Below are positions 5,855-34,153 of a stretch of 34,153 nt of DNA, piece after piece. Below the pieces are notes generated by a model. It worked only from the letters and a program-made list of their open reading frames with translations. It made no database searches and had not been told where the DNA came from. A program made the translations under genes and the position numbers. The DNA is from a virus, in the IMG/VR virus record IMGVR_UViG_3300042899_000050, positions 1 to 34,153 of that record; one strand, written 5' to 3'. The stretch's first letter is position 1; each line of letters opens with the position of its first letter.

Positions 5855-6012
5855 TGAATCAGGAATCAGTAAAGAAAGCCTTGCTAGAAGCCGCAGGTAA
5901 TCCATCATCAGGAGTAATTTTTGAGATGGCAGCAGATCTAGCAACAGCGATTGTTAAGGCTCATTCGCCTAAGCACGAAGAACGGGTTATTAAGCCGCAG
6001 GAAACTCGTTAA
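5854..6012 (+). CDS. Small helical protein before the capsid gene
   Basis: A 52-residue ORF (MNQESVKKALLEAAG onwards, ending PQETR) whose ATG overlaps the stop of the protease gene (TAATG). It is predicted helical and amphipathic in the middle (IFEMAADLATAIVKAH). Family not recognised. Coupled translation and its place between protease and capsid suggest an assembly role, but nothing in the sequence proves it. Confidence 0.6.
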   Translation: MNQESVKKALLEAAGNPSSGVIFEMAADLATAIVKAHSPKHEERVIKPQETR

Positions 6013-6063
6013 GCCACAATAATTCTGTGGCATAATAATTATTGGTACGAGGAGCCTCTACCA
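6013..6063 (+). promoter_or_regulatory. Two tandem hairpins in the major capsid leader
   Basis: GCCACA (6013-6018) pairs with TGTGGC (6026-6031) across a 7-base loop. TGGTA-C-GAG (6043-6051) pairs with CTC-TACCA (6056-6063) across a 4-base loop with one bulge. They occupy the only sizeable gap in the terminase-to-capsid block, directly before the gene needing the most product. They may process or stabilise capsid mRNA. No good sigma-70-type promoter is obvious between them and the capsid RBS (AGGAGA). Confidence 0.5.
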
Positions 6064-21683: not shown

Positions 21684-22417
21684 GCATTGAGTCGCTAGCA
21701 ATCTGTCTGAATCACAGTGTCGCTACAGGTACGGACAAACTGATTCTGCTGGGCATAGCAAATCACGATGGCGATGGAGGCGCGTATCCGTCAGTGGCAA
21801 CTCTGGCGCGATACGCGAACTCTAGCGAGCGTACAGTGCAGCGCAGTATCCAGACACTGATTGAACTAGGAGAGATCCGAGTGGATCGCAACGGCGGCGG
21901 ATCTGCTAATCAACGGCGCGACAGGCGGCCTAACAGGTATCACATTTTAGTTTCGTGTCCCGCTAGGTGCGACAAGACTAGCCAGCATCGGAATCGTGAC
22001 GGGGTGACACTGCTGACACAACGGGGTGACACTCCTGACGTGTACGGGGTGACGCAGGTGACACCCGAACCGTACTTAGAACCAGCCTTAGAACCAGAGA
22101 TTATGACAGCGCCAAAATTGACACCAACAGCAGCGACAATCACTGCTCGCTACGTTGACGCATTTCGTGATCTACACCAACTGGAACCACCTAAGAGCAA
22201 CATCGGTCGGATAGCAAAAGCAGCCAAGGAATTAGTGGACGCTTATCCATTAGAACTGCTACTGGAAGCGGCCGAGTCATGTGCCGCGTCTGGGCATGCA
22301 AATCTAAGTTCGGCTGTCAGTTGGGCAATGGCGGAAAACACAAGGCAGCAACAGAAAAGCAGTAAGGGCGCAGCCGCGTTCTTGCGACTAGCAGAACAAC
22401 AACTCATTGAACTTTAG
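21680..22417 (+). CDS. Winged-HTH replication initiator-like protein
   Basis: A 245-residue protein. Residues about 1-90 are a winged helix: GIANHDGDGGAYPSVATLAR, then NSSERTVQRSIQTLIELGEI and the wing GGGSANQRRDRR. This is the HTH_36-type fold of phage replication initiators or primosome proteins. A flexible Thr/Pro/Glu-rich linker with repeated GVT(Q/L) segments leads to a helical C-terminal domain (about 160-240) resembling a DnaD-type partner domain. ATG 21680 overlaps the upstream stop; the frame extends further upstream but inside another gene. It probably melts or marks the phage origin and recruits the host helicase. Confidence 0.7.
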   Translation: MSIESLAICLNHSVATGTDKLILLGIANHDGDGGAYPSVATLARYANSSERTVQRSIQTLIELGEIRVDRNGGGSANQRRDRRPNRYHILVSCPARCDKTSQHRNRDGVTLLTQRGDTPDVYGVTQVTPEPYLEPALEPEIMTAPKLTPTAATITARYVDAFRDLHQLEPPKSNIGRIAKAAKELVDAYPLELLLEAAESCAASGHANLSSAVSWAMAENTRQQQKSSKGAAAFLRLAEQQLIEL

Positions 22418-22425
22418 GAGGGGCA

Positions 22426-22782
22426 ATGACACAACAAGAAGTATTAGTCATTCTGGCTATGGCCGCGACATTTGACGCAAGGCTGACAGCAGGTGACGAT
22501 ACCGAGAAACTGAATCGAAGTAGGGCTTGGCATGCAGCGCTAGACAAGGATCTTACGTTTGCAGACGCAAAGCAATTCGTGATTGAGCATTACGCAGAAC
22601 ACAAGACAGCGATAATGCCTGCTGACGTCAACTTGCGTTGGCGCAAGGTTAGGGCGCACAATAAACCTATTGAACAAACCAAACAATTAGTGCGGCAGAT
22701 AGAAGCAGATAGGAGTAGAGCGACTGGGATGCCCGAAAGCGTAAGGGTACAACTTGACGAACTACTCAAACGAAAGTCATGA
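22426..22782 (+). CDS. Putative helicase loader-like protein
   Basis: A 118-residue helical protein. RAWHAALDKDLTFADAKQFV and IMPADVNLRWRKVR resemble small actinophage proteins placed beside wHTH initiators, where a replicative-helicase loader or adaptor role is suspected. AGGAGG precedes the ATG. Its 3' end overlaps the WhiB gene. No ATPase motif is present, so it is not a DnaC-type loader. Confidence 0.55.
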   Translation: MTQQEVLVILAMAATFDARLTAGDDTEKLNRSRAWHAALDKDLTFADAKQFVIEHYAEHKTAIMPADVNLRWRKVRAHNKPIEQTKQLVRQIEADRSRATGMPESVRVQLDELLKRKS

Positions 22783-23098
22783 CTGCGTAACCAGCGTTTG
22801 TGATCACGATCCGCCTGAGCATTGGAAGCAACTTGCTTTGTGCGGAAAGTTAAAAGACAAAGACATTATGTTTCCAGACGAACCTGATGATCTCGTTGGT
22901 ATTACTGTTGCAAAATCAGTTTGCCAATCCTGCACTGTCAAACACTTTTGTTTAGAACTTGGTTGGGCAGACGAGTTTGGAATCTGGGGCGGTTATTCTG
23001 CAGCCGACAGAATCAGGCTTAAGCGATGGCTAAGACTGCCAGCCAAGGCATCCCCAATCAGGCGGCTGGTGCGGACGCTAGCCCTTATTGAGCGCTGA
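22754..23098 (+). CDS. WhiB-family iron-sulfur transcription factor 1
   Basis: A 114-residue WhiB-like protein. The four cluster cysteines are C30, C57, C60 and C66 (CxxC plus a fourth five residues on), followed by the GIWGG turn at 76-80 and a basic tail (RLKRWLRLPAK). In the family a [4Fe-4S] cluster is bound and the protein contacts sigma factor region 4 to redirect promoters. Start is TTG 22754, the only usable start in frame, overlapping the loader gene by 29 bp. Phage WhiBs can dominate host WhiB2-type functions. It lies just before the early promoter at 23131. Confidence 0.92.
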   Translation: MTNYSNESHDCVTSVCDHDPPEHWKQLALCGKLKDKDIMFPDEPDDLVGITVAKSVCQSCTVKHFCLELGWADEFGIWGGYSAADRIRLKRWLRLPAKASPIRRLVRTLALIER

Positions 23099-23130
23099 GA
23101 ATCCCTGTAACTACGCGGATTATTCGGTAG

Positions 23131-23159
23131 TTGACATGTATTACGGTCGTGTGTAACAC
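23131..23159 (+). promoter_or_regulatory. Early promoter with inverted-repeat operator
   Basis: TTGACA (23131-23136), a 17-base spacer and TAACAC (23154-23159). GTATTAC (23138-23144) and GTAACAC (23153-23159) form an operator-like repeat with one mismatch. The first 16 bases are identical to the leftward promoter at 8287. The leader that follows (23160-23197) ends AAAGGAGGCCAAAATG. Confidence 0.8.
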
Positions 23160-23197
23160 TTAACACATGCCACAGGGGCAGGTCAAAGGAGGCCAAA

Positions 23198-23446
23198 ATG
23201 AACGCAGTAGTAGAAGTAACAGTAGAAGAAACAGGCGAAGCAATCTTGCACGCGAAGGGTTGCAGCCACATCCTACGCGACAAGAACCGCTTGCAAACGC
23301 AGTACGGAATTAAAGCAACAGTCACAACCTACTCAAGCCTAGAGGAATACGCCGACGAAGTTTGGTTCGACATTGCATCTGACAATGACGAGGACGTAAT
23401 GATGGTCATGTTCCAAAACACTGATGTGAATCCTTGCGCCAAGTAA
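23198..23446 (+). CDS. Small acidic early protein
   Basis: An 82-residue acidic protein (MNAVVEVTVEETGEAILHAK) ending NPCAK, with an alpha/beta pattern and no known motif. It starts after a perfect Shine-Dalgarno and a strong promoter, so it is likely abundant early. Its stop codon (23444-23446) directly abuts the first hammerhead element. Its strong negative charge could suit a DNA-mimic or inhibitor, but that is speculation. Confidence 0.7.
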   Translation: MNAVVEVTVEETGEAILHAKGCSHILRDKNRLQTQYGIKATVTTYSSLEEYADEVWFDIASDNDEDVMMVMFQNTDVNPCAK

Positions 23447-23501
23447 GTCGAAACTCCCACTAGGGAGTCTTGCAGAACTGATCACCTGCAACTGATGAGA
23501 T
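23447..23501 (+). ncRNA. Hammerhead ribozyme-like element 1 (type II)
   Basis: Core in order: C-GAA at 23449-23452; stem III ACTCCC/GGGAGT (23453-23458 with 23463-23468); cleavage triplet GTC ending at 23469; stem I TTGCAG/CTGCAA (23470-23475 with 23486-23491); CTGATGA at 23492-23498. Stem II is the open stem (GTC 23447-23449 with GAT 23499-23501, one GU pair). Predicted cut is between 23469 and 23470. All invariant core bases are present. The short stem II is the weakest point. It sits between two early genes, right after a stop codon. Confidence 0.85.
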
Positions 23502-23526
23502 AGATCAAAGGTCAAAGGAGGCCAAA

Positions 23527-24189
23527 ATGAGCAAGTTAGATTACGAAGTAAAGACAATCACGTGGGCTGGTCAAAAGTTCGACGTGGTTCTAAGAACCCA
23601 CGCAACGCATTCAAGCAAAACACATTCAACAATTTCAGTTAAGCAGTTCGCAACCGACAAGTGGGAGCCACTAGGGGACATCGCTATTAACGGAAACCCT
23701 GCAGCAAGAAAGTTCATTCAATTCGCGGCAGGCCTATTTGACGTGAATGTTGAAAAGCCAACAGTCACCAAGTGGCGCAAGATCGCAAACGGTTACAAGT
23801 TCATTGATAGCGAACCAAAAGGCTACTCATTAGAACTATGGCCAGTGGGCGGCAAGCAGGAACAAGAGGCTCGCAACGCAGAGTTAGTGGCTGAGTACGA
23901 CAGGGCATACGAAAACGAGGTACGCATTGAAGCCGAGGCGAAAGCCAAGGCACTGCAGATCATTGCAGACAATGCCGATCTTCGCATCATGCAGTTAGAA
24001 GTGGAAGTCGAAGGCCACGTGTTTGAGTTCAAGCGCAGCCTATGGAGCGATGGTAGCGAATACACAAACATCTCTAAGTTGGTTTGTAACTGCGAGAGCA
24101 ACAGAATGCGCCAATACAACAGTAAGACCACATTTCCAACAGATGCAGAACGCGCGCTTGCAGGATTTGATGCCAGCGTAATGTGCTAA
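23527..24189 (+). CDS. Unknown early protein between two ribozyme elements
   Basis: A 220-residue protein (MSKLDYEVKTITWAGQKFDV). The N-terminal ~115 residues look beta-rich. Residues about 120-155 form an Ala/Glu coiled coil (EVRIEAEAKAKALQIIADNA). A C-terminal beta region contains CNCE. Start fixed by AAAGGAGGCCAAAATG 3' of ribozyme 1. The last stop codon (24187-24189) is part of stem II of ribozyme 2. Family not recognised. Confidence 0.7.
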   Translation: MSKLDYEVKTITWAGQKFDVVLRTHATHSSKTHSTISVKQFATDKWEPLGDIAINGNPAARKFIQFAAGLFDVNVEKPTVTKWRKIANGYKFIDSEPKGYSLELWPVGGKQEQEARNAELVAEYDRAYENEVRIEAEAKAKALQIIADNADLRIMQLEVEVEGHVFEFKRSLWSDGSEYTNISKLVCNCESNRMRQYNSKTTFPTDAERALAGFDASVMC

Positions 24190-24247
24190 TCGAAACTCCC
24201 CTAGGGGAGTCTGGCAGGGCTGGCCGCTTGCCACTGACGAGATAGGC
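24185..24247 (+). ncRNA. Hammerhead ribozyme-like element 2 (type II)
   Basis: C-GAA at 24191-24194; stem III ACTCCC/GGGAGT with CTAG loop (24195-24210); cleavage base C24211; stem I TGGCAGG/CTTGCCA (24212-24218 with 24227-24233, 8-base loop); CTGACGA 24234-24240 (position 7 of this core box is variable). Open stem II pairs ATC (24189-24191) with GAT (24241-24243), then after one A-A mismatch GCT with GGC. Predicted cut is 24211/24212. Compared with element 1, paired positions in stems I and II change together. Confidence 0.88.
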
Positions 24248-24270
24248 CAAAAGATAAAACTGAATAACGC

Positions 24271-24337
24271 TTGACAAATAAAACGAGTTACCTAATCATT
24301 AACTAAGCCCACAGTGGGCAGGTCAAAGGAGGCCAAA
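24271..24337 (+). promoter_or_regulatory. Promoter and early leader for the DUF932 gene
   Basis: TTGACA (24271-24276), 16-base spacer, TAATCA (24293-24298). This copy lacks the GTATTAC operator, so it may be regulated differently. The leader holds a small hairpin, GCCCAC/GTGGGC, then AGGTCAAAGGAGGCC before the ATG at 24338. Confidence 0.7.
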
Positions 24338-25267
24338 ATGAATACAGTTATGAAAGCAGAAACATCTTTCCGAGTTCCTGCGTTTGAGAAAGTCGGCAAG
24401 CCAGTTGGCGAGTGCCTAACGATTGACGAAGCACTAGCGGCTGGAGGACTTGACTGGAACGTAGAGTCAATGCCACTGCAGGCCGTAACGCCTCAAGGCG
24501 TGCTTGAGATAAATAACCGAGTAGCCAATGTCAGAAATCGTGACGGTCAATACGACCTGCTAGGAGTCGTTGGCAAGGAATACCAGATCGTGCAGAATGC
24601 GGAAGCGTTCAAAGTCCTAGACGACATTGTGGATCAGTCAGGCGCGCACTTCAACGCCGCTGGTTCGTACAAGAAAGGCAAGGGGCAATTCATCTCAATG
24701 AAAATCCCACAGCACATCGAGTTCAGCAACGGCGATACCACTGACCTGTATCTGTTCTGCACTAACAGCCATGACGGCAAATCAGCGATGCGTATTTCAG
24801 TCACGCCTATCCGAGTAGCCTGCACCAATCAAATCGGCGCAATTACTACGTCAGCGCTAAGCACGTTCTCAATTCGCCACACCATGAATGCATTAAACCG
24901 AGTACAGGAAGCACGCGAAACCCTGAAACTCACATTCACCTACATTGATGCTTTCCAGATGGAAGTCGAAGAACTTATTAACTCAGAGTTCAGTGGCAAG
25001 CAGTACGAGAATCTAGTCAAGAGCGCCTTTGACTACGACCCACGTGATGCCAGCCCAAGAGAAACGGAACGGTTCAGCAGCCTGATGAATCTATGGACTG
25101 CTCCAACCCAGCAGAACATCAAGAATACAAAATGGGCAGCGTACAACGCGGTAGTCGAGTACTTGGACTGGTATGCCCCTGCACCCAGCGCCGCTATCAA
25201 AGCAGAGCGCGTACTGAGCAGCGCCCAGTTGCAAGCGCAAAAGGGTCGGGTACTCCAGATGCTATAA
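24338..25267 (+). CDS. DUF932 phage/plasmid-like protein
   Basis: A 309-residue protein of the DUF932 (phage/plasmid-related, TIGR03299-like) family. Features: LLGVVGKEYQIVQNAEAFKV near residue 75, then GQFISMKIP, LFCTNSHDGKSAMRISVTPI and VACTNQIG, and a helical C-terminus. The biochemical role of the family is unsettled; it is common beside phage and plasmid replication or recombination genes. Start 24338 is fixed by the leader. Its stop lies immediately before ribozyme element 3. Confidence 0.85.
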   Translation: MNTVMKAETSFRVPAFEKVGKPVGECLTIDEALAAGGLDWNVESMPLQAVTPQGVLEINNRVANVRNRDGQYDLLGVVGKEYQIVQNAEAFKVLDDIVDQSGAHFNAAGSYKKGKGQFISMKIPQHIEFSNGDTTDLYLFCTNSHDGKSAMRISVTPIRVACTNQIGAITTSALSTFSIRHTMNALNRVQEARETLKLTFTYIDAFQMEVEELINSEFSGKQYENLVKSAFDYDPRDASPRETERFSSLMNLWTAPTQQNIKNTKWAAYNAVVEYLDWYAPAPSAAIKAERVLSSAQLQAQKGRVLQML

Positions 25268-25330
25268 GCGCCGAAACTCCCCCTCAGGGGAGTCTGGCAG
25301 GTGTGATGGCCTGCTACTGACGAGGCAGTC
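25268..25330 (+). ncRNA. Hammerhead ribozyme-like element 3 (type II)
   Basis: C-GAA at 25272-25275; stem III ACTCCCC/GGGGAGT (25276-25282 with 25287-25293); cleavage base C25294; stem I TGGCAGG/CCTGCTA (25295-25301 with 25310-25316, one GU pair); CTGACGA 25317-25323. Stem II pairs GCC (25270-25272) with GGC (25324-25326), then after a bulged A two more pairs. Predicted cut is 25294/25295. It separates the DUF932 gene from a tiny membrane-protein gene. Confidence 0.87.
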
Positions 25331-25350
25331 AGCAAACAAAGGAGAGCAAA

Positions 25351-25443
25351 ATGAAAGAACCGATAGTTCTAACAAGACGCGGCAACATTGGATTCGTACT
25401 GTTGCTGGTATTAGTAATGGTATTTGTCGGAACAGTTGAGTAG
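25351..25443 (+). CDS. Tiny single-pass membrane peptide
   Basis: A 30-residue ORF: a basic N-terminus (MKEPIVLTRRG) followed by an uninterrupted hydrophobic helix (FVLLLVLVMVFVG) and a short TVE tail. AAAGGAG lies eight bases before the ATG. It lies just downstream of ribozyme 3, so the cleaved RNA would begin with the stem I hairpin and carry this gene first. Function unknown; too small for family assignment. Confidence 0.6.
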   Translation: MKEPIVLTRRGNIGFVLLLVLVMVFVGTVE

Positions 25444-25515
25444 CGGCACGCCGATACCCAAATAAATAAATTGTCAGAGGGTAGCAGTATCCTCAAAACT
25501 ACAAAGGAGGCAAAA

Positions 25516-26034
25516 ATGCCAACACTGAAAGAACTCGCTATGGACTTAGCGATAGCAACTCTGGTTGCTGATGTAATAAAAGAACGGCGCGACATGTTGC
25601 GCGAATCACTGCAAGCACTGCTGATGGAAACGGGCAGCGATAGCACTAGGGCAACGATCGCTAACGAGGTTGGCGAAACGCGCATTGCTAAAGTTTCGCT
25701 GGTATCAGGATCGCCAAAGGCTTACGTCTTAGACGAGCATGCGTTCCTGCAAATGGTAAAAGCGGATTACCCAACTGAGGTAACTGAAACTGTAAGGGAC
25801 ACGTTTAAGACGATCTTGCTATCTCAGGCAACGCCTACATCAGACGGCCAAGCAGTCAATACCGAAACGGGCGCGATCATGGACGGCGTTGCATTTAGAA
25901 CTGGCAACCCATACGTGACAACACGCTTTGACAAAGACGGCCGCATGGAACTAGCACGCGCCATCGCAAGCGGAGATGTGATAGCCGCACTCCCTGCACT
26001 GATGGATCTAAATCAACTGGAAGCAGGTAACTAA
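25516..26034 (+). CDS. Unknown protein upstream of the recombinase-like gene
   Basis: A 172-residue protein (MPTLKELAMDLAIATLVADV). The segment NEVGETRIAKVSLVSGSPKA, then EHAFLQMVKADYPTEV, recurs in actinophage proteins next to recombination genes, but I know no biochemical role. Start fixed by AAAGGAGGCAAAAATG. It lies 1 bp before the ERF-like gene, so the two are probably co-translated and may act together, as accessory nuclease or partner proteins do with annealing proteins. Confidence 0.7.
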   Translation: MPTLKELAMDLAIATLVADVIKERRDMLRESLQALLMETGSDSTRATIANEVGETRIAKVSLVSGSPKAYVLDEHAFLQMVKADYPTEVTETVRDTFKTILLSQATPTSDGQAVNTETGAIMDGVAFRTGNPYVTTRFDKDGRMELARAIASGDVIAALPALMDLNQLEAGN

Positions 26035-26035
26035 A

Positions 26036-26554
26036 ATGGCTTGGCAAAACGACTACGTTGATGTAGCAACACGACTTCAACTATTTTACGAAAAGCACCC
26101 AGACGGCGTTATCCAATGCATGCCTGCAGAAATTAAAACAGTGGGTGATAAGCAATTCATCGCGGTCATGGCCTACGGCTACAAGACACCAGACGATGCG
26201 ATGCCGTACATGGCTCAAGCATGGGAGCCTGCAGTCGGCTCAACTAACTTCACAAGAAACAGCGAGTGCATGAACGCGGAAACATCTGCAGTCGGCAGAA
26301 TGCTGGGCATGATGGGGATTGCGGCTAAGAAGTCAATCGCCTCAAGAGATGAAGTTAGTAACAGGGTTAACGAAACAGATCCGCAACCTGAGTCAAAAGC
26401 GTTTACAGCGTTAATGGAAATAATTAACAAAGCGGAAACGCAAGCAGACTTAGAAGCGGCCGCAAAGTTAATTAAAACCTCTAACTGCAGCGAGGCGAAC
26501 TTAAAGGAACTGCGAAACACGTATTGGCTCAAGATGAAACACGTGCAGCAATGA
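26036..26554 (+). CDS. ERF/Rad52-like single-strand annealing protein candidate
   Basis: A 172-residue protein. The conserved part is MNAETSAVGRMLGMMGIA at about 80-97, which matches the NAETSAxGRALxxLGI signature of ERF/Rad52-like actinophage proteins, preceded by beta strands (FIAVMAYGYKTPDDA). Such proteins anneal single strands during recombination-dependent replication. It is followed by RusA and SSB within 2 kb, a coherent recombination module. The C-terminal ~60 residues are a helical tail. ERF-like assignment is moderate. Confidence 0.6.
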   Translation: MAWQNDYVDVATRLQLFYEKHPDGVIQCMPAEIKTVGDKQFIAVMAYGYKTPDDAMPYMAQAWEPAVGSTNFTRNSECMNAETSAVGRMLGMMGIAAKKSIASRDEVSNRVNETDPQPESKAFTALMEIINKAETQADLEAAAKLIKTSNCSEANLKELRNTYWLKMKHVQQ

Positions 26555-27072
26555 CGATTCCAGAATTGCCATACAATGGCACATCGGGCTGGTCAGGTTC
26601 TGAGGCTAGCCGTCAACGGGCTACACAGGCCGACTCAGGCGGTTTAACGGCGCGTAGGCAGTCAGATACCCTAAATCTGATAGAGCGCGCTGAGGCCGCT
26701 GGTATCACGTGGCAGGAGTTAGCGTTCCATTACGGCTGGCATCATGGCCAAGCAAGCGGAGCGCTCAGCAACCTGCACAAAGGCGGCCACATCGAGCGCC
26801 TAGAGGAAATGCGAAACAAGTGTCACGTTTACGTATTGCCTGAGTGGGTTATGTTTCGACCTACACAATCGTTCGGCAGAAAGCATCCGCACGAAGTTAT
26901 TAAAATAGATCACACCACGATGGGTAATCAGTACGTCTATGAAACCCCCGATGGCGGCCAGATACTTGTGACCGTATTTCTTTCAGGTATGGTTCGTGTT
27001 GCAACGAGAACTGACAGCCTTGCTTCATGGGAGCCGCCGCTTGAATGCATCAAGACTGAGATCCTGTTATGA
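26551..27072 (+). CDS. Winged-helix-like DNA-binding protein
   Basis: A 173-residue protein. Residues about 45-90 (AAGITWQELAFHYGWHHGQA, then ALSNLHKGGHIERLE) look like a winged helix with a following wing. The C-terminus is beta-rich (GGQILVTVFLSGMVRVATRT). ATG 26551 overlaps the previous stop (ATGA) and is preferred over an upstream TTG. It overlaps RusA by 4 bp. It probably regulates or assists the recombination module. Confidence 0.65.
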   Translation: MTIPELPYNGTSGWSGSEASRQRATQADSGGLTARRQSDTLNLIERAEAAGITWQELAFHYGWHHGQASGALSNLHKGGHIERLEEMRNKCHVYVLPEWVMFRPTQSFGRKHPHEVIKIDHTTMGNQYVYETPDGGQILVTVFLSGMVRVATRTDSLASWEPPLECIKTEILL

Positions 27073-27467
27073 CGCAGATGTTTTACGTCAAGGGCGTACC
27101 GATTCCACAAGGCAGCAAGACAGCGCGTGTTGTTAATGGCCGCGTGGTCATGTGGGAATCAAACAAGAAACTTAAGGCATGGCGCGACACGATCACTAAA
27201 CAGGTAGAAACAGACATGATCGAAACGTATTCAGACGGAACGCCCATCAAGATGGTTTTAACATTTGAGTTCGTAAAGCCAAAGAGTTCCAGCAGGGTCC
27301 ATCCAACAGTGAAGCCTGATGTAGATAAGTTAGTCAGAGCAGTTCTGGACGCGCTCACTAAAGCAGGCATCTACCATGACGACTGCCAAGTAGTAAGTCT
27401 GAGGGCGCGCAAAAGTTACACAGTGCAGTCTGGCGTTTCAATACTGATTGACGCGATTCATGTTTAA
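27069..27467 (+). CDS. rusA: RusA-like Holliday junction resolvase
   Basis: A 132-residue endonuclease that cuts four-way junctions before packaging. The metal-binding acids sit in KPDVDKLVRAVLDALT: D84, D86 and D94, with K87; HDD at 103-105 follows. The N-terminal GVPIPQGSKTAR segment is also typical. Length fits the family. It lies in the recombination module with the annealing-like protein and SSB and overlaps WhiB 2. Confidence 0.92.
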   Translation: MTQMFYVKGVPIPQGSKTARVVNGRVVMWESNKKLKAWRDTITKQVETDMIETYSDGTPIKMVLTFEFVKPKSSSRVHPTVKPDVDKLVRAVLDALTKAGIYHDDCQVVSLRARKSYTVQSGVSILIDAIHV

Positions 27468-27786
27468 CTTGGCAAACATTGACTGGATGGCTGACGGCGC
27501 ATGTAGGAATGTGTGGCCTGAGTTATTCTTTCCTGATTCCCCTAAGGAAACAGAGCAGGTAAGACTGGCTCGGGAAGTGTGCGCTGGTTGCAGCGTGCTT
27601 ACAGAATGCTATTCCTACGCGATGCACATTAACGTGCAGGGAGTTTGGGCAGGCACAACGCCTGAACAAAGAAAGGTGTCACGAAAGATACTCAAGATCG
27701 TGCCACTACAGATAGAAGAAACCTATCGCCACTTAAAACAAACAGAAAGGAAGCAAAATGCTACCCCTAGTAATAATGAGCGGTAA
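27460..27786 (+). CDS. WhiB-family iron-sulfur transcription factor 2
   Basis: A 108-residue WhiB-like protein. Cluster cysteines are C15, C41, C44 and C50 (CAGCSVLTEC), then GVWAGTTPEQR at 61-71, the family G(V/I)W(A/G)G turn. The C-terminus is short and mildly basic, unlike WhiB 1, so the two probably contact different promoters. ATG 27460 is preferred over TTG 27448; the gene overlaps rusA by 8 bp and SSB by 29 bp. Two WhiB genes in one small phage suggest staged reprogramming of host transcription. Confidence 0.92.
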   Translation: MFNLANIDWMADGACRNVWPELFFPDSPKETEQVRLAREVCAGCSVLTECYSYAMHINVQGVWAGTTPEQRKVSRKILKIVPLQIEETYRHLKQTERKQNATPSNNER

Positions 27787-28144
27787 TTTGGTCGCAGACC
27801 CAGAGCCGTTCTTCACTGAAAATGGAACTGCAGGCGCACGAATCAGAGTTGCTTGCAATGAAAGCAAAAAGGATAAAGACGGAAACTGGATTGACGGTGA
27901 AGTCGTTTACATCAAGGCCACTTGCTGGAACAGTATGGCAGAGTCCGTTATTAACAACGCCAAAAAGGGAACCAAGGTAAATCTCACTGGTCGCCTATCA
28001 ATGGACACCTACACTGACAAGGCTGGTGTAGAGCGATCAACGCCGCAGGTAACGGTTGATTCTATCGGCGCGTACCCATACAAGACCAAGGACTCAATCA
28101 CAACAGCCGTTGATCCTTGGGGCGAAAACCAAAGCCCGTTCTAG
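27758..28144 (+). CDS. ssb: Single-stranded DNA-binding protein
   Basis: A 128-residue OB-fold SSB. MSGNLVADPEPFFTENGTAG, then VYIKATCWNSMAESVIN and GTKVNLTGRLSMDTY are family hallmarks. The C-terminal tip WGENQSPF is a weakened version of the acidic DDIPF tail, so partner recruitment may differ from the host SSB. AGGAAG lies upstream of the ATG. It works with the annealing-like protein and RusA in replication and recombination. Confidence 0.92.
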   Translation: MLPLVIMSGNLVADPEPFFTENGTAGARIRVACNESKKDKDGNWIDGEVVYIKATCWNSMAESVINNAKKGTKVNLTGRLSMDTYTDKAGVERSTPQVTVDSIGAYPYKTKDSITTAVDPWGENQSPF

Positions 28145-28152
28145 GAGGACAA

Positions 28153-28356
28153 ATGTTAGAAGCAGCAATCATAATCGTTCTAGTATCAGCACTCACTGGA
28201 ATAGCAGTACGCATTGGCTTTAATGTGGGTGAACGCAAAGCCTACATTGTCGTTGCTAACGAACTACTGGAGGCCACTGAGCAGCGCAGGCGTGACAACG
28301 CTACTGGTACGCCCATTGGAGAGCAGGTAGCAAGACAGATTGGTATTCAGCCATGA
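28153..28356 (+). CDS. Small single-pass membrane protein
   Basis: A 67-residue protein with one N-terminal membrane segment (MLEAAIIIVLVSALTGIAVR) and a charged cytoplasmic helix (LLEATEQRRRDNAT). AGGAGG precedes ATG 28153; the longer frame upstream lies within ssb. Its stop overlaps the next ATG. Function not recognised; the topology resembles small phage membrane proteins that modify host envelope functions. Confidence 0.65.
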   Translation: MLEAAIIIVLVSALTGIAVRIGFNVGERKAYIVVANELLEATEQRRRDNATGTPIGEQVARQIGIQP

Positions 28357-28640
28357 CACAGCCTGATGAAAGAAAGTTTGTCTGGATGATCACGTTTGAC
28401 GAGTTTCTAGACATGATCACGTCAATGGTCGCTTGCAAGATGCACCACAGCCCTCAGAAGTATTACCACATGGAGAACCTGACTGAGGCCTTTCAGGATG
28501 CGGCAGAGAGCCTTGGTATTGCTTTCAACGTGTTTAAGGACTACAACGTAGTGAGCAACACTGGCTACAATGAAAAGCATGAGGCCACGATCAAAGAAAC
28601 GACAAGCCCTCTATGCGAGTGCAAGGATTCCCTTAGTTAA
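28353..28640 (+). CDS. Unknown protein overlapping the HNH gene
   Basis: A 95-residue protein (MTQPDERKFVWMITFDEFLD) with a helical centre and His/Lys-rich stretch (KMHHSPQKYYHMEN) and a CEC near the end. Its ATG overlaps the previous stop (ATGA), supporting expression. Its last 71 bases are shared, in another frame, with the start of the HNH gene, an unusually long overlap here. Family not recognised. Confidence 0.6.
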   Translation: MTQPDERKFVWMITFDEFLDMITSMVACKMHHSPQKYYHMENLTEAFQDAAESLGIAFNVFKDYNVVSNTGYNEKHEATIKETTSPLCECKDSLS

Positions 28641-28845
28641 AGAATTGCTAAGGGACAACCCAACATGCGAGAAGTGCCACGCTAGGTACGCGGTTGATGT
28701 CCACGAACTAAAGAGTAGAGCGAGAGGCGGCAGCATCACTGACAGGGATAACCTTGTGGTGGTCTGCCGTCCTTGCCATACATGGATCACTCAGAATCCA
28801 AAGGAAGCCTTAGAGCAGGGCTGGTCAAAGAATAGTTGGGATTAG
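28570..28845 (+). CDS. HNH nuclease 1 (zinc-ribbon type)
   Basis: A 91-residue HNH protein. RSKKRQALYASARIPLVKEL, then CEKCHARYAVDVHELKSRAR, GGSITDRDNLVVVC and RPCHTWIT give the C-C/H-N-H layout with HELKSRA as the first His and CHTW as the last. Start may be 28570 or 28579 (MRPRSKK). Single-domain HNH proteins of this kind help terminases or act as homing-type nucleases; here an early accessory role is possible. Confidence 0.82.
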   Translation: MKSMRPRSKKRQALYASARIPLVKELLRDNPTCEKCHARYAVDVHELKSRARGGSITDRDNLVVVCRPCHTWITQNPKEALEQGWSKNSWD

Positions 28846-28847
28846 CG

Positions 28848-29141
28848 ATGCTAAACGAATGGGCTGACACCATAGGCCAGAACATACATGCCGTATTGCT
28901 GGATCAGATTATGTATCACTCACCACATGTCCAACGGGCAGAGGCGGAGCGCGCAATACATGGAATGACAAAGACAGTAAGCGTAATACGCACGTCAATC
29001 TCAGATGTGCTTGATGGAGAGATAGAAACGCTCGCCTTTCGCAGAAGCCTCGGTGACGATAGCATCGGGATAGAGTTTCTTGCAGGCATGCTGGCAGCAC
29101 TAGAACTAGTTCGTGACGGCACACACTTAAAAGAGGACTGA
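28848..29141 (+). CDS. Unknown helical protein
   Basis: A 97-residue protein (MLNEWADTIGQNIHAVLLDQ), helical throughout, with several His near residues 23-26 and an ALELVRDGTHLKED end. ATG 28848, two bases after the HNH stop, is chosen over TTG 28836. The stop overlaps the next ATG. Not recognised. Confidence 0.6.
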   Translation: MLNEWADTIGQNIHAVLLDQIMYHSPHVQRAEAERAIHGMTKTVSVIRTSISDVLDGEIETLAFRRSLGDDSIGIEFLAGMLAALELVRDGTHLKED

Positions 29142-29329
29142 TGAAGCGGCGCATTGTCTTACGTTTAATGGGAGAAGAAGTCCTCGACCTAACCATTGAC
29201 GAAGATGATTACGATGACGAAGCCATAGAACCAGAAGCAGGCGCGCTAGGTGCATCAGCAGACGCGCAAGCACGCAACATAGGATTCGGAACTCCTTGGT
29301 CTGTTGAGTACTGGGACGATGAGGACTGA
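29141..29329 (+). CDS. Small acidic protein
   Basis: A 62-residue protein with a basic start (MKRRIVLRLMGEEVL) and a very acidic remainder (LTIDEDDYDDEAIEPEAGAL, ending WDDED). Start and stop overlap both neighbours. A disordered acidic tail could mimic nucleic acid or bind basic partners; that is inference. Not recognised. Confidence 0.6.
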   Translation: MKRRIVLRLMGEEVLDLTIDEDDYDDEAIEPEAGALGASADAQARNIGFGTPWSVEYWDDED

Positions 29330-29655
29330 TGGGATTCGCTAGGCCATGCCTTGATTGCGGCACACTAACCAGAACAGGATCTCGATGTGAGCGGCATCAG
29401 GCCATAGTGAACGCAAACATAGACGCACGTAAGGCTCAACGCACTCACTACTCTGGCAGTTACAGATCAAAGGCAAAGCAGGTACGTGACAACGCGGTCG
29501 TGTGTTGGCTATGTGGGGACGGCGCTAGAGTTAATGATCCTTGGACAGCCGATCATTACATACCAAGGGATCCGACAAGCCCACTGCTACCAGCCCACAG
29601 GTCCTGCAACAGTTCGAGGCAAAATACCCCTGCAAACGGGACTAGGGGTGGGTAA
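29329..29655 (+). CDS. HNH nuclease 2
   Basis: A 108-residue HNH protein. N-terminal zinc-like pair (CLDCGTL, then RCERH), then VCWLCGDGARVNDPWTADHY and LLPAHRSCNSSR, giving DH and HRSCN as the catalytic HNH core. In many HK97-like phages such a gene sits directly before terS and boosts terminase cutting. Here the ParB/ALDH/PP-loop cassette separates the two by about 5 kb, which suggests the cassette was inserted between them. Confidence 0.85.
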   Translation: MGFARPCLDCGTLTRTGSRCERHQAIVNANIDARKAQRTHYSGSYRSKAKQVRDNAVVCWLCGDGARVNDPWTADHYIPRDPTSPLLPAHRSCNSSRQNTPANGTRGG

Positions 29656-29871
29656 TTTTCTCAGCAACATCAGGGGGTCGTACCCCAAGCCGATGCCAAC
29701 GCGCATTGCCGCGTAATTCGCAATTTCTGAATAAGCCAATCTCAGGCCGTTTGGGGCAGTCTGGGGCTGGACTACCCCTGCAGCGAGAAACTGGCTGAGC
29801 GTGCCGCTCAGGGCGCTTAGTTGCCAGATAGCCGACTTGCCACTGGGCAGCCGTAATGGCATGATGTCAGC
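29656..29871. other. Non-coding gap with several hairpins before the cassette
   Basis: The largest gap in the window. It holds GGGG-TCGTA-CCCC, a GGGG...CCCC element with an inner GTC/GAC pairing, and a perfect 7-bp hairpin CTGAGCG/CGCTCAG (29795-29811, 3-base loop). TTGCCA and CATGAT at 17-base spacing just before 29872 could be a weak promoter. No convincing gene is seen. Candidates are a terminator for the early unit, a cassette promoter, or a DNA-processing site. Confidence 0.45.
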
Positions 29872-30510
29872 ATGACTGACATGGTAGTTGAGCAGGCAGC
29901 GATTAACTCGCTTAAGCCAGATCCTCAGAATGCTCGTATTCATAACACCACTAACCTGAAAGCCATTAGAGGAAGTCTTGAAACTTTTGGTTTCGTTAAG
30001 CCTTTAATTGTTTGGGGCGAAAACGTGGTGATTGCTGGAAACGGAACGCTGGAAGCAGCCAAGCAAATTGGCTTAAAAACAATTCCAATCCGAAGAGTTC
30101 CGAAAGACTGGACATGGGAAAAGGCTCAAGCGTTCGCGCTCGCTGATAATCGTACTGGGGAACTAGCAGATTGGGATCCACAAATCCTGAAAGACACGCT
30201 AATAGAACTTGACGCTAACGGCTGGGCTGTTGACGATTTCGGATTTAACGCGCTGCAGCCGCCAACTAATCCCGAACCACGCGACATGTCTTGGCTAGAT
30301 AACTTACAAGAAACAAGTCCCGTTACCCCATCAGTGGAATTAGATCCTACATTCGCAGGCGGCCACGCTTACGGCTTGTCTTGGGCGTTTACTGCCGAGC
30401 AGCGCCGAGTAATTGTAGAGGCCACAAATACGTACAAATCTGTTAATGGTACGCTTGATTCACCCGAAGCACTTTTCGAGATTTGCAAACTTTACTTGGA
30501 GCCACAATGA
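29872..30510 (+). CDS. ParB-like nuclease-fold protein opening the cassette
   Basis: A 212-residue protein. The ParB-like domain (about 8-115) has the box GNGTLEA at 56-62 and a FALADNRTGELADWDPQIL segment at about 88-106, as in ParB-like domains of IbrB-type and methyltransferase-linked phage proteins. No methyltransferase is fused or adjacent. The C-terminal ~70 residues (FAGGHAYGLSWAFTAEQRRV) are not recognised. ATG 29881 is an alternative start. It overlaps the cupin gene (ATGA). It differs clearly from the ParB-like protein at 49, so the two are not recent duplicates. Confidence 0.8.
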   Translation: MTDMVVEQAAINSLKPDPQNARIHNTTNLKAIRGSLETFGFVKPLIVWGENVVIAGNGTLEAAKQIGLKTIPIRRVPKDWTWEKAQAFALADNRTGELADWDPQILKDTLIELDANGWAVDDFGFNALQPPTNPEPRDMSWLDNLQETSPVTPSVELDPTFAGGHAYGLSWAFTAEQRRVIVEATNTYKSVNGTLDSPEALFEICKLYLEPQ

Positions 30511-30938
30511 GCATTATGGATAACGAACTAGTTGTCACCAATCTACTCGACCTACGACACCGTATTCTGGAATTAGGAATTGACGTAGTCGGCGCTAAGG
30601 CTAAAGGCGTACCCGTACACACCAATGGACACTTGGGCGTTGATGTGTTACGAGTGGAAGCAGGCGACAGTTTCCCTATCCATACCCATGAGGGCGATCA
30701 CCTGCTTTTATGTCTTGAGGGCAAAGGTACGATCTCGATTGCAGGCAAGACCTACCACGTTGTAGAGGGCGACATTTACATGGTCGCTGGAATGACCCCA
30801 CATGCCGTTGGGGCAGCAAGCGATTCGTACCACGTATTGGCCGCTATCGGCGCACCACACAAAGCAATAGACTCACCAAACCGAATGACTGCGACAGACT
30901 GGGATGGAAACATTGTTGAATCGGCGATCTACCTCTAG
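30507..30938 (+). CDS. Cupin-fold metal-binding protein
   Basis: A 143-residue single-domain cupin. Motif 1 is HTHEGDHLLLCLEGKG with ligands H59, H61 and probably D64 or H65. Motif 2 is GDIYMVAGMTPHAV with H99. Small cupins serve as dioxygenases, isomerases or sensors; residues alone do not tell which. ATG 30507 overlaps the ParB-like stop and is chosen over TTG 30483. It overlaps the aldehyde dehydrogenase gene by 35 bp. A cupin-ALDH pair suggests metabolism of a small molecule. Confidence 0.8.
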   Translation: MSIMDNELVVTNLLDLRHRILELGIDVVGAKAKGVPVHTNGHLGVDVLRVEAGDSFPIHTHEGDHLLLCLEGKGTISIAGKTYHVVEGDIYMVAGMTPHAVGAASDSYHVLAAIGAPHKAIDSPNRMTATDWDGNIVESAIYL

Positions 30939-32310
30939 CAAACACTTTGACAGCGTACTAAGCGGAGTGCGAAAGCAAGACAAAGTAATACTGCATTTAA
31001 TAAGTCCCGTAACTGGTTACGACCGCGCCACTGTTAGCAACGCTGATAGCGAAACTGTAAAGCAGGCAATACGAGAGGCGTGCGCTGGGTTTCAGGTATG
31101 GAAAGATTTAACACCTGCAGTGCGCTCTAAGTTTCTTTTGGCCTTTGTAAGCGAACTGGAAAAAGAATCAGTCAATCTAGCAAAGGCAGAATCTGATTCC
31201 ACTGGCAAGCCACTAAGTCAAAGCATTAGCGAAGTAGCAGGCGCTATTGACGTGTTTAGATTTTACGCAGGCGCGGCTCGCACAATGCAAACGCAGAGCG
31301 CAGGCACTTACATTCCAGATACCTACTCAATGGTTATGCACGAACCCGTTGGTTGCTGGGGAGTGATCTTGCCTTGGAACTATCCCCTAATGATGCTTGC
31401 TTGGAGAGTAGCGCCGATACTGGCGGCTGGAAACACAGCCATAGTCAAGCCTGCTTTAAGCACTCCCGACACTGCAGTCATGGTCGCTGAAATCGCATCG
31501 CGTGTTTTGCCAAACCTGATACAAGTAATTACTGGCGACGAAACAGTTGGCAAGGCTTTAGTGGTTTCCGAGATTGATGGCATTGCATTTACTGGAAGTG
31601 TTTCGGCCGGTCACGAAATAGCAAGGACAAGACCAGACATTCCTGTTTCTCTGGAACTAGGTGGAAACGGCGCTTGTGTAGTATTACCAGACGCGCCTTG
31701 GTTTACTGCACGCCGCTTAGTGGAAGCACTGGTTTATAACGCTGGCCAATCTTGCGCCGCGCCATCAAGGATTATTACCGTTGGGGATTGCTCAGACTTT
31801 GAGAATAAGTTAAGGCACGAAATAGGTAATACCAGAAGTAGTAAGTTTGGTCCACTAAACAACATAGATCAGGTCGCAAGACTTGAGTCAATAATGGCTC
31901 ACTCAAAATGGAACGACCACTGCAAGGGAGTCCTTGACGCAGAGGGATACCACGTAGCCGCCCAAGCCTATTGGGTTAGTGGCAATGACCAACCGATTGT
32001 GCAAGAAGAATTGTTTGCGCCTGTATTCACAATACAAAGAGTTGCAACGGTCGCGGAAGCAATAGCGCTGGCCAACAGTACCGAGCAGGCCTTAAGCAAT
32101 TCAGTTTGGACTACCAACGTTGAGGCTGGCCTTAAAGTAGCGCAAGCCCTAGTGGGCGGAGAGTCTTGGATAAATTGCCACTTGTCACAATCACCAGAAC
32201 TACCACATAGCGGCAGAAAAAACTCAGGCAACGGAATTGACTTAAGCGCCCAAGCACTAATGGAATACACAAAGATTAAAACGATAACAGTGGGATTTGA
32301 GAATGGCTAA
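30904..32310 (+). CDS. Aldehyde dehydrogenase, NAD(P)-dependent, complete active site
   Basis: A 468-residue ALDH superfamily enzyme oxidising an aldehyde to the acid. Visible: PWNYP at 157-161 (oxyanion Asn159), VKP at 181-183 (Lys182 for cofactor), FTGS 229-232, general base E251 in ELGGN, nucleophile C284 in NAGQSC, and EELFAPVF near residue 360. The end (SGRKNSGNGIDLSAQALMEY) matches betaine/succinate-semialdehyde-type members. It is full length. ALDHs are rare in small phages; its overlap with cupin and PP-loop genes places it in one operon. Substrate unknown; the next gene overlaps its stop. Confidence 0.92.
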   Translation: METLLNRRSTSSKHFDSVLSGVRKQDKVILHLISPVTGYDRATVSNADSETVKQAIREACAGFQVWKDLTPAVRSKFLLAFVSELEKESVNLAKAESDSTGKPLSQSISEVAGAIDVFRFYAGAARTMQTQSAGTYIPDTYSMVMHEPVGCWGVILPWNYPLMMLAWRVAPILAAGNTAIVKPALSTPDTAVMVAEIASRVLPNLIQVITGDETVGKALVVSEIDGIAFTGSVSAGHEIARTRPDIPVSLELGGNGACVVLPDAPWFTARRLVEALVYNAGQSCAAPSRIITVGDCSDFENKLRHEIGNTRSSKFGPLNNIDQVARLESIMAHSKWNDHCKGVLDAEGYHVAAQAYWVSGNDQPIVQEELFAPVFTIQRVATVAEAIALANSTEQALSNSVWTTNVEAGLKVAQALVGGESWINCHLSQSPELPHSGRKNSGNGIDLSAQALMEYTKIKTITVGFENG

Positions 32311-33514
32311 GATTCGCAAGGCGCAACCGATAGACGAGAACGTATGGGACTTAACCATGCAGCGGCTTAACTACATTTTCGACATGTTTGATGAAGTTGT
32401 AGTTTCTTTCTCGGGTGGGAAAGACAGCACGGCAGTTCTAAATACCGCACTAATGGTTGCCGAGGAAAGAGGCAGACTTCCACTAAGAGTCGTGTTCTAT
32501 GACGAGGAAGCGATCCCGTTCCAAACAGAGCAATACGTAAGGCGAGTAGCGGAAGATCCTAGAGTTTTATTAGAGTGGTACTGCCTGCCGCTAGAACTGC
32601 GTAATGCCTGCTCACGTAAATACCCAACTTGGTATTCATGGGATAAAGACGATGAAGACTTATGGGTTAGGCCACTGCCGCCAGAAGCCATTACATCACA
32701 TCCAAACGTGGATGGAGTTCCTAGAGAAAAGCGTATGGGTTGGGCAGACTTTGCGCCAACACTTGCCACTGGAAATAACACAGCGTTTCTCATGGGTATT
32801 CGTGCGTCAGAATCTATGACACGACGCAGAGCCGTAACAATGAAAAAGATTGACAACTACATAATTAACTTCGGTAAAGGGCTTGCTAAGTGTTATCCAA
32901 TTTACGATTGGCAGACTGCTGATGTGTGGACTGCCCCGCACAAGTTTGGCTGGGACTACAACCGCGCTTATGACCACATGGAGATGCTAGGTATCGGACC
33001 TGATGTGCAGCGTTGCGCTCCTCCGTTTGGAGAGGAACCTCTAGGTGGACTATGGGTATTCTCTCAAGCGTTCCCCGACATCTGGGACAAGATGATTTAC
33101 AGAGCGCATGGGGTTGCAGCCGCCGCACGTTACGCAAGAACAGAACTCTATGGTTTTGGTGGAACGCCAGAAAAGCCACAAGGGGATACTTGGCCTGAGT
33201 ACATTAAGTGGCTTCTAATGAAACACCCTCCCGAAGTTCGCAAGCATGCGGCACATTCCGTTGCCCATTTGATAGAGATGCATTTCCAAAGAGTGGATAC
33301 GCCTATCGCTGAAAAAACCAAGCACCCACTAACTGGTATTTCATGGGGACGCATTTCGAGCATAGCAATGCGTGGCGATACCAAGTCGCGTAGAACCCAA
33401 ACCACGATTTACTTAAATCAGGGAACGGTTGAGTTTGAGAGAAAACTGGCGGCGTACAACACAGAGATAGATTTGATCACACAACAAGGCCGACTAAAGG
33501 AGTTGCAGCCATGA
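32303..33514 (+). CDS. PP-loop (PAPS-reductase-fold) protein, IbrA/DUF3440-like
   Basis: A 403-residue protein with the PP-loop SFSGGKDS at 35-42, which binds the diphosphate of ATP. Length and the long C-terminal domain (KCYPIYDWQTADVWTAPHKF, then GWDYNRAYDHMEMLGIGP) match IbrA/DUF3440-type proteins. The ECGLH catalytic motif of true sulfate-assimilation reductases is not seen. So this is more likely an adenylating or sulfur-transfer enzyme, like DndC or IbrA, than CysH. ATG 32303 overlaps the ALDH gene; the stop overlaps the next gene (ATGA). Confidence 0.85.
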   Translation: MAKIRKAQPIDENVWDLTMQRLNYIFDMFDEVVVSFSGGKDSTAVLNTALMVAEERGRLPLRVVFYDEEAIPFQTEQYVRRVAEDPRVLLEWYCLPLELRNACSRKYPTWYSWDKDDEDLWVRPLPPEAITSHPNVDGVPREKRMGWADFAPTLATGNNTAFLMGIRASESMTRRRAVTMKKIDNYIINFGKGLAKCYPIYDWQTADVWTAPHKFGWDYNRAYDHMEMLGIGPDVQRCAPPFGEEPLGGLWVFSQAFPDIWDKMIYRAHGVAAAARYARTELYGFGGTPEKPQGDTWPEYIKWLLMKHPPEVRKHAAHSVAHLIEMHFQRVDTPIAEKTKHPLTGISWGRISSIAMRGDTKSRRTQTTIYLNQGTVEFERKLAAYNTEIDLITQQGRLKELQP

Positions 33515-34153
33515 GCAATCAGTATTCGGAAAGACTCACGAAGTTAATTGACATAGCGCGCCACGACATTGAGGCAGCCCTAGTTGGTAAAGTAAATCCG
33601 CTAGTGGCCTACTCAGGAGGCAAAGACGGAAACGTAGTAATGCACCTTGTCAATACAATGACCAAGGTGAAAGGCGTATGCGAAATGTCTTTCTACTACG
33701 AAAAGCAAAAACAGGACATTGAGGACAGCGCGGCCAGATTAAACTACGAACTAGAAGTTAAAGAATCCTTAGACTGGAATTGGCTATCTAGACACAGCCG
33801 CTTCGTGTTTGCGGAAGACGTAAAACTGCGAGCAGACAGATGCAGACTGAGGCAGCAAACCTCGGTGAAGAAACAGGGGCTACTAAACAAGAGCGACATT
33901 GTAATCTTTGGCCGTCGCACGCAAGAGAATAGCGTTAAGTCAAAACTCTACGAGGCAAACGGATTACTAAACTTTCACCCGATCAGGGAATGGCGGCACG
34001 AAGATGTTTGGGAATACATTGACAGAACTCCCGAACTAGAAGTACCTTGGATCTATTCTCAGTATCATGGCCAGAAAGCAGGCAACTCACCTTTCTACAG
34101 TTTGCGGCTTAAGCATTTTGATAACAGTTACGACAAGGCTTGGGAATACTGCA
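33511..34153 (+). CDS. Second PP-loop (PAPS-reductase-fold) protein, continues at 1-59
   Basis: 214 residues in this window plus 15 across the join give 229. The PP-loop is AYSGGKDGN at about 33-41. IVIFGRRTQENSVK and HPIREWRHEDVWEYID match the phosphoadenosine phosphosulfate reductase fold (RxxES-like and W-x-x-x-D-V-W boxes). No ECGLH motif is visible before or after the join. It differs from the 32303 protein in size and motif, so the phage has two distinct PP-loop enzymes in tandem. The ATG overlaps the previous stop. It has no stop inside the window end. Confidence 0.85.
   Translation, partial: MSNQYSERLTKLIDIARHDIEAALVGKVNPLVAYSGGKDGNVVMHLVNTMTKVKGVCEMSFYYEKQKQDIEDSAARLNYELEVKESLDWNWLSRHSRFVFAEDVKLRADRCRLRQQTSVKKQGLLNKSDIVIFGRRTQENSVKSKLYEANGLLNFHPIREWRHEDVWEYIDRTPELEVPWIYSQYHGQKAGNSPFYSLRLKHFDNSYDKAWEYC
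34142..34153. repeat. Terminal direct repeat (copy 2)
   Basis: GGGAATACTGCA, identical to positions 1-12. It falls inside codons of the PP-loop gene, and the reading frame runs on without a break when the two ends are merged. Confidence 0.85.

Follow-up and report, generated by a model that had tools for sequence, protein, structure and literature searches.

Three type II hammerhead ribozymes stand at consecutive gene boundaries of a viral genome, and their most probable role (probability about 0.75) is RNA punctuation of a phage operon, in which genes or gene pairs would be given their own mRNAs with structured ends. The window analysed here is a 34,153-base IMG/VR virus record, whose left part carries terminase, portal, capsid protease, major capsid and tail genes and whose right part carries exonuclease, replication-initiator-like, RusA and ParB-like genes. 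A Microbacteriaceae-type actinobacterium is the probable host, because the record's terminase is nearest to that of Pontimonas phage phiPsal1 (57% identity) and next to those of Streptomyces phages; the virus is probably a phage of aquatic actinobacteria.

Three Hammerhead Elements in the Window

A cmscan search of the window against all Rfam 15 families returned exactly three matches above the gathering cut-off, all to RF02276 (Hammerhead_II; cut-off 37 bits) and all on the + strand; a permissive search (E<=5) gave no further Rfam match anywhere in the window. The elements separate four consecutive + strand ORFs of 82, 220, 309 and 30 aa, and the features of the block are as follows.

23198..23446, + strand: gene 1, 82 aa, weak match to phrog_12580; its stop TAA (23444-23446) abuts ribozyme 1
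23446..23509, + strand: ribozyme copy 1, type II hammerhead (RF02276, 40.0 bits; also found by the descriptor); C11.1 at 23449; stem II 23447-23449/23499-23501; stem III 23453-23458/23463-23468; stem I 23470-23475/23486-23491; CUGAUGA 23492-23498; predicted cut 23469/23470; pseudoknot 23479-23483 with 23503-23507
23527..24189, + strand: gene 2, 220 aa, between ribozymes 1 and 2; no family and no relative found
24188..24251, + strand: ribozyme copy 2, type II hammerhead (RF02276, 49.4 bits; descriptor); C11.1 at 24191; CUGACGA 24234-24240; predicted cut 24211/24212; pseudoknot 24221-24225 with 24245-24249
24271..24299, + strand: promoter-like TTGACA-17-AATCAT between ribozyme 2 and the DUF932 gene; chance matches are also expected
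24338..25267, + strand: gene 3, 309 aa, DUF932 / phrog_1221, between ribozymes 2 and 3
25269..25334, + strand: ribozyme copy 3, type II hammerhead (RF02276, 57.2 bits; descriptor); C11.1 at 25272; CUGACGA 25317-25323; predicted cut 25294/25295; short pseudoknot 25304-25307 with 25328-25331, including one G.U pair
25352..25444, + strand: 30-aa hydrophobic ORF directly 3' of ribozyme 3, with a Shine-Dalgarno leader
23184, 23513, 24324, 25337 and 25502 (span 23184..25518), + strand: near-identical Shine-Dalgarno leader CAAAGGAGGCCAAAATG

Each cmscan alignment spans positions 1-66 of 66 in the type II arrangement, with loops closing stems I and III and with stem II left open; the core (CUGANGA, GAAA and the NUH triplet, here GUC) is intact in 3/3 copies. 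G.U pairs occur once in stem II of copy 1 and also in stem I of copies 2 and 3. An earlier note on this DNA, made from the letters alone, had described three tandem type II hammerhead-like elements, and the Rfam covariance-model search that it proposed bears this out; the order that it gave (CGAAAC, stem III, GTC, stem I, CTGANGA, open stem II) is correct in every copy, and its stems and cut positions, which are those listed above, agree with the sequence and with a descriptor that combines sequence and pairing. Stem III is followed by CUNGCAG, so that the elements lack the U tract that together with a GC-rich hairpin defines an intrinsic terminator.

The note had overlooked a pseudoknot between loop I and the 3' tail, which comprises 5, 5, and 4 pairs in copies 1, 2, and 3 (UGAUC/GAUCA, UGGCC/GGCCA and UGAU/GUCA, the last being the weakest); the differences between the pseudoknots of copies 1 and 2 are compensatory. 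Folding also suggested an alternative partner for the tail, the core in place of loop I; this candidate switch was dropped because copy 2 is unable to form it.

Conservation of the Structure

A covariance model built from 57 phage copies scores the three elements at 61-70 bits, a figure that is not independent because the window copies belong to the training set. Across the 57 copies the structure is paired in 91.6% of cells, both sides have changed in 294 cells (85.6 when shuffled), and the covariation score is 0.651, compared with 0.211 for shuffled and at most 0.127 for slid alignments. The pairing of the stems is partly by construction, since the descriptor demanded them; the pseudoknot, which the descriptor did not require, is free of this bias. 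Its helix is paired in 76% of cases, with compensatory variation in all five pairs, and its longest Watson-Crick run averages 3.83 pairs vs. 2.76 +- 0.07 after the copies have exchanged their tails. Rfam, covariation and a pseudoknot that lay outside the selection criteria thus all support identity as type II hammerheads.

Chance matches are rare: the strict descriptor found none in three shuffles (about 1.07 Mb) and the relaxed descriptor one in 1.6 Mb of shuffled sequence. An exact pattern scan gave 90 stretches in viral contigs vs. five in 257 Gb of bacterial and archaeal genomes, and the elements are therefore mainly phage elements. The loop of stem III is a UNCG or GNRA tetraloop in 79/169 copies, a class that makes up 12/256 of the possible four-base loops. 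The public Rfam model undercounts phage type II hammerheads; in the DUF932 loci L143-L162 it finds four at the gathering cut-off vs. 25 for the phage-trained covariance model.

Genes and Setting of the Block

All four ORFs around the ribozymes are preceded by the nearly identical leader, and the copy that lies 3' of the promoter-like site resembles the leader of gene 1 (TTGACA 23131-23136). Given this site ahead of the DUF932 gene, more than one transcript may cover the block. Gene 2 has no family match, and neither its product nor the DUF932 protein retrieved relatives as a single-protein query; the relatives of the latter came from the DUF932 alignment, and elsewhere they likewise adjoin hammerheads. 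The block is flanked by a replication-initiation-like gene and the RusA resolvase gene, and its description as "early genes" in the earlier note is plausible.

Two further features of the record were observed outside the block. A 22-nt direct repeat, CGTGACGGGGTGACACTCCTGA, occurs in 2.6 copies at 21995-22053, within the replication-initiator-O-like gene, which is what origin iterons would look like. The right end of the record carries a full-length aldehyde dehydrogenase gene (PF00171, 30904-32310), followed by a gene for a PAPS-reductase/DUF3440 protein (32297-33514); both are possible auxiliary metabolic genes.

Placement at Stop Codons

Each element of the window starts at a stop codon, a point that the earlier note had missed. 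Copy 1 begins at the base after the TAA of gene 1, stem II of copy 2 takes in the last A (24189) of the TAA of the 220-aa gene, and copy 3 begins two bases further from the stop codon of the DUF932 gene. The same placement is found in environmental phages: among distinct copies with enough flank, C11.1 lies 0-5 nt after the stop codon of a same-strand ORF of at least 40 aa in 98/133, compared with 1.8% at random nearby positions and 6/132 on the other strand. The mode is 2, and stop codon and ribozyme therefore abut exactly, because a 3-bp stem II takes up C11.1 and two further bases. The next start codon is mostly within about 60 nt downstream of the ribozyme.

This placement was also examined in 80 DUF932 loci that were gathered by protein alone, avoiding selection by the ribozyme pattern; here 18 of 28 ribozymes lie 0-5 nt behind a stop codon (2.1% at random). 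Closeness to stop codons may partly reflect the compactness of phage genomes. In MW202801.1 (locus L395) a hammerhead at 5995-6063 follows a stop codon at a distance of 3 nt, and two genes upstream of it an annotated antirestriction protein is encoded; ardA beside hammerheads has been reported earlier too (Perreault et al., PMC3088659).

Arrays in Other Viruses

Rfam matches in the records behind the pattern hits number up to 14 (G073), nine (G023) and seven (G060); the descriptor places 13 hammerheads in the fetched region of G073. Of 83 inter-ribozyme intervals, 75 have a terminal ORF whose stop lies 1-16 nt ahead of the following ribozyme; under a simple ORF rule 44 of the intervals contain a single gene, and a further 31 close with a gene but contain at least two. 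In the window each of the two intervals holds one gene. The suggestion in the earlier note that one early transcript would be cut into monocistronic pieces is well supported by this anatomy, although with the possible internal promoter the transcript may not be a single one.

The first ribozyme of an array often lacks an ORF of at least 40 aa close upstream (11/27 first copies vs. 4/76 internal copies, p=4e-5), although short unseen ORFs could lower the count of 11. Because such leader copies open arrays, 5' ends appear to matter as well as 3' ends.

The longest series lies on the minus strand of a 95 kb phage record (L094, G073:C1:1-16500), with 13-14 hammerheads; the sequence before its first copy resembles a terminator hairpin with a T tract. 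The DNA of the long arrays L095 and L094 had no match in INPHARED. Roseobacter phage CRP-7 (MK613349.1), whose record names the host strain, has one high-scoring copy at 567-637; most of the remaining, low-scoring matches of a ribozyme query to INPHARED cover the stem III hairpin alone.

DUF932 Loci and Sister Phages

A covariance model trained without the 80 DUF932 loci found 28 ribozymes in 13 of them, 11 of these loci being among the 20 closest; all 28 ribozymes share the strand of the DUF932 gene. Control loci carried a ribozyme in 0/80 (terminase) and 2/80 (exonuclease) cases; the Fisher p values of 1e-4 and 0.005, respectively, serve only as a guide, as the families sample different phages. 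In locus L146, whose DUF932 protein is about 41% identical, the ribozyme is kept between the preceding stop codon and DUF932, as in the window. A more distant homologue (about 24% identical; L034:3350-4288) has a hammerhead on both sides in L034, L115 and L138, again as in the window. No hammerhead was found in the DUF932 regions of five cultured actinophages (L389-L393) or in the whole phiPsal1 genome (L388).

Sister phages of the window were represented by 35 loci (exonuclease 73-79% identical), in which neither descriptor nor model found the ribozymes and from which genes 1-3 are absent. The distance from the gene at 22754 to RusA is 1355-2619 nt (median 1977) in the 29 sister loci that span it and 3971 nt here. 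Since sister phages have neither ribozymes nor genes and have the shorter interval, the ribozymes appear to have been gained or lost with a block of about 2.2 kb, and ribozymes and three linked genes look like a mobile unit. Relatives that retain the flanking genes but have lost the core, which the earlier note had named as evidence against ribozymes, were not seen. The ribozymes are apparently not essential to this type of phage, because about 35 sister phages have none. INPHARED holds no near-identical relative of window positions 22000-34000.

Proposed Mechanism and Alternatives

In the favored reading, punctuation of the operon, each ribozyme would fold while RNA polymerase passes and would cut 22-27 nt past the stop codon of the gene that has just been transcribed, so that the coding sequence stays whole after the predicted cut. 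The upstream mRNA would have the stem III hairpin and a 2',3'-cyclic phosphate at its 3' end, and the downstream mRNA would open with the stem I hairpin, bearing a 5'-hydroxyl, ahead of the standard Shine-Dalgarno leader. A designer of independent, stable messages would choose such an arrangement. Hairpins and 5'-hydroxyl groups protect RNA ends. Each gene or gene pair would thus become a separate message with ends that should guard against end-dependent decay, its lifetime and dose uncoupled from those of its neighbors, and the ribozymes would move together with the genes as a module. The analysis shows the sequence, structure, covariation, placement and recurrence of the elements, while cleavage of the window copies, protection from decay and uncoupled dosage are what we infer. 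The chances are about even that many tailed phages use such punctuation operon-wide, fusing a hammerhead to the stop codons of nearly all genes in an operon and frequently placing another in the leader. Both mRNA ends would then be set by RNA catalysis instead of by promoters, terminators or RNases, and the module would pass between phages.

The ribozymes might instead serve only to form 3' ends, each acting as a terminator substitute for the upstream gene with the downstream end as a by-product. The tight linkage to stop codons and the stable tetraloops of stem III would fit such a role, as would the promoter-like site downstream of ribozyme 2, from which the DUF932 mRNA may start independently, and the finding of no terminator-like site on the + strand between 20 and 28.5 kb of the window. 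Cleavage does not stop polymerase, however, and the 11/27 arrays that open with a ribozyme lacking an upstream ORF would merely have a 5' leader trimmed by it; we consider 3'-end formation alone improbable. It is also hardly credible that the elements are degenerate or coincidental hairpins without cleavage: copy 1 exceeds the Rfam cut-off by only 3 bits, but the core bases are intact in all three copies, and both the covariation and the 0-1 descriptor matches in shuffled controls argue against coincidence.

Units between two ribozymes would bear 5'-hydroxyl and 2',3'-cyclic phosphate ends suited to an RtcB-type ligase, and could be re-ligated into circular mRNAs. The host may encode RtcB, as a control actinobacterium does, but no RtcB was found among 16 records, namely the window and 15 further array records of which several are fragments, and Perreault et al. 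sought spliced or circular products and detected none (PMC3088659), making circularization very unlikely. Similarly slight is the chance that the ribozymes are carried along as passengers by a mobile gene block, or are selfish, and bring the phage no benefit; the block is missing from sister phages and the genes that flank hammerheads vary widely between phages, but the structure is kept by compensatory changes over large divergence, the placement at stop codons is exact, and L146 has a copy in the same place beside DUF932 despite the divergence of that protein.

Comparison with Known Systems

The window is a further instance of the known clustered phage hammerheads, in which several hammerheads flank single genes or short blocks, the arrangement found both in the window and in the 83 intervals elsewhere. 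The basic idea is already known, since clustered phage hammerheads that process polycistronic RNA were published in 2011, together with a triple phage array active in vitro and in E. coli (Perreault et al., PMC3088659). The statement in the earlier note that phage hammerheads occur mostly as single copies thus understates what had been described. Self-cleavage is established for the type II family (PMC3088659), and the window copies share its core, open-stem-II permutation, loop I/tail pseudoknot and phage setting; the ribozyme itself is no different, while many of its relatives fall under the Rfam cut-off. In the triple array around ardA in an Agrobacterium tumefaciens prophage (PMC3088659), hammerheads likewise flank single genes or short blocks, whereas the present array lies in a free phage record, probably actinobacterial, and adjoins other genes (DUF932).

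In the literature searched, which included few subscription papers, nothing on phage hammerhead arrays was found beyond PMC3088659 and a 2023 paper that still called the reason why bacterial hammerheads lie near phage genes and near each other unknown (PMC10085705). The words "stop codon" do not occur in PMC3088659, and neither the series of 13-14 nor the stop-codon rule was found there; the same literature yielded no earlier report of the rule, the series, the leader copies, the DUF932 link, or the UNCG/GNRA-capped stem III of such copies.

Together, the stop-codon rule, the series of 13-14, the leader copies and the stable stem III loops yield a concrete, testable claim, that natural ribozymes define phage mRNA ends gene by gene; CRP-7 provides a laboratory entry point. 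In bacteria, ribozyme insulators of the RiboJ type are self-cleaving leaders that standardize the mRNA 5' end. RiboJ is engineered and used once per cassette, whereas the elements of the window are natural, serial and tied to stop codons, and such copies offer natural, diverse insulator parts for expression work.
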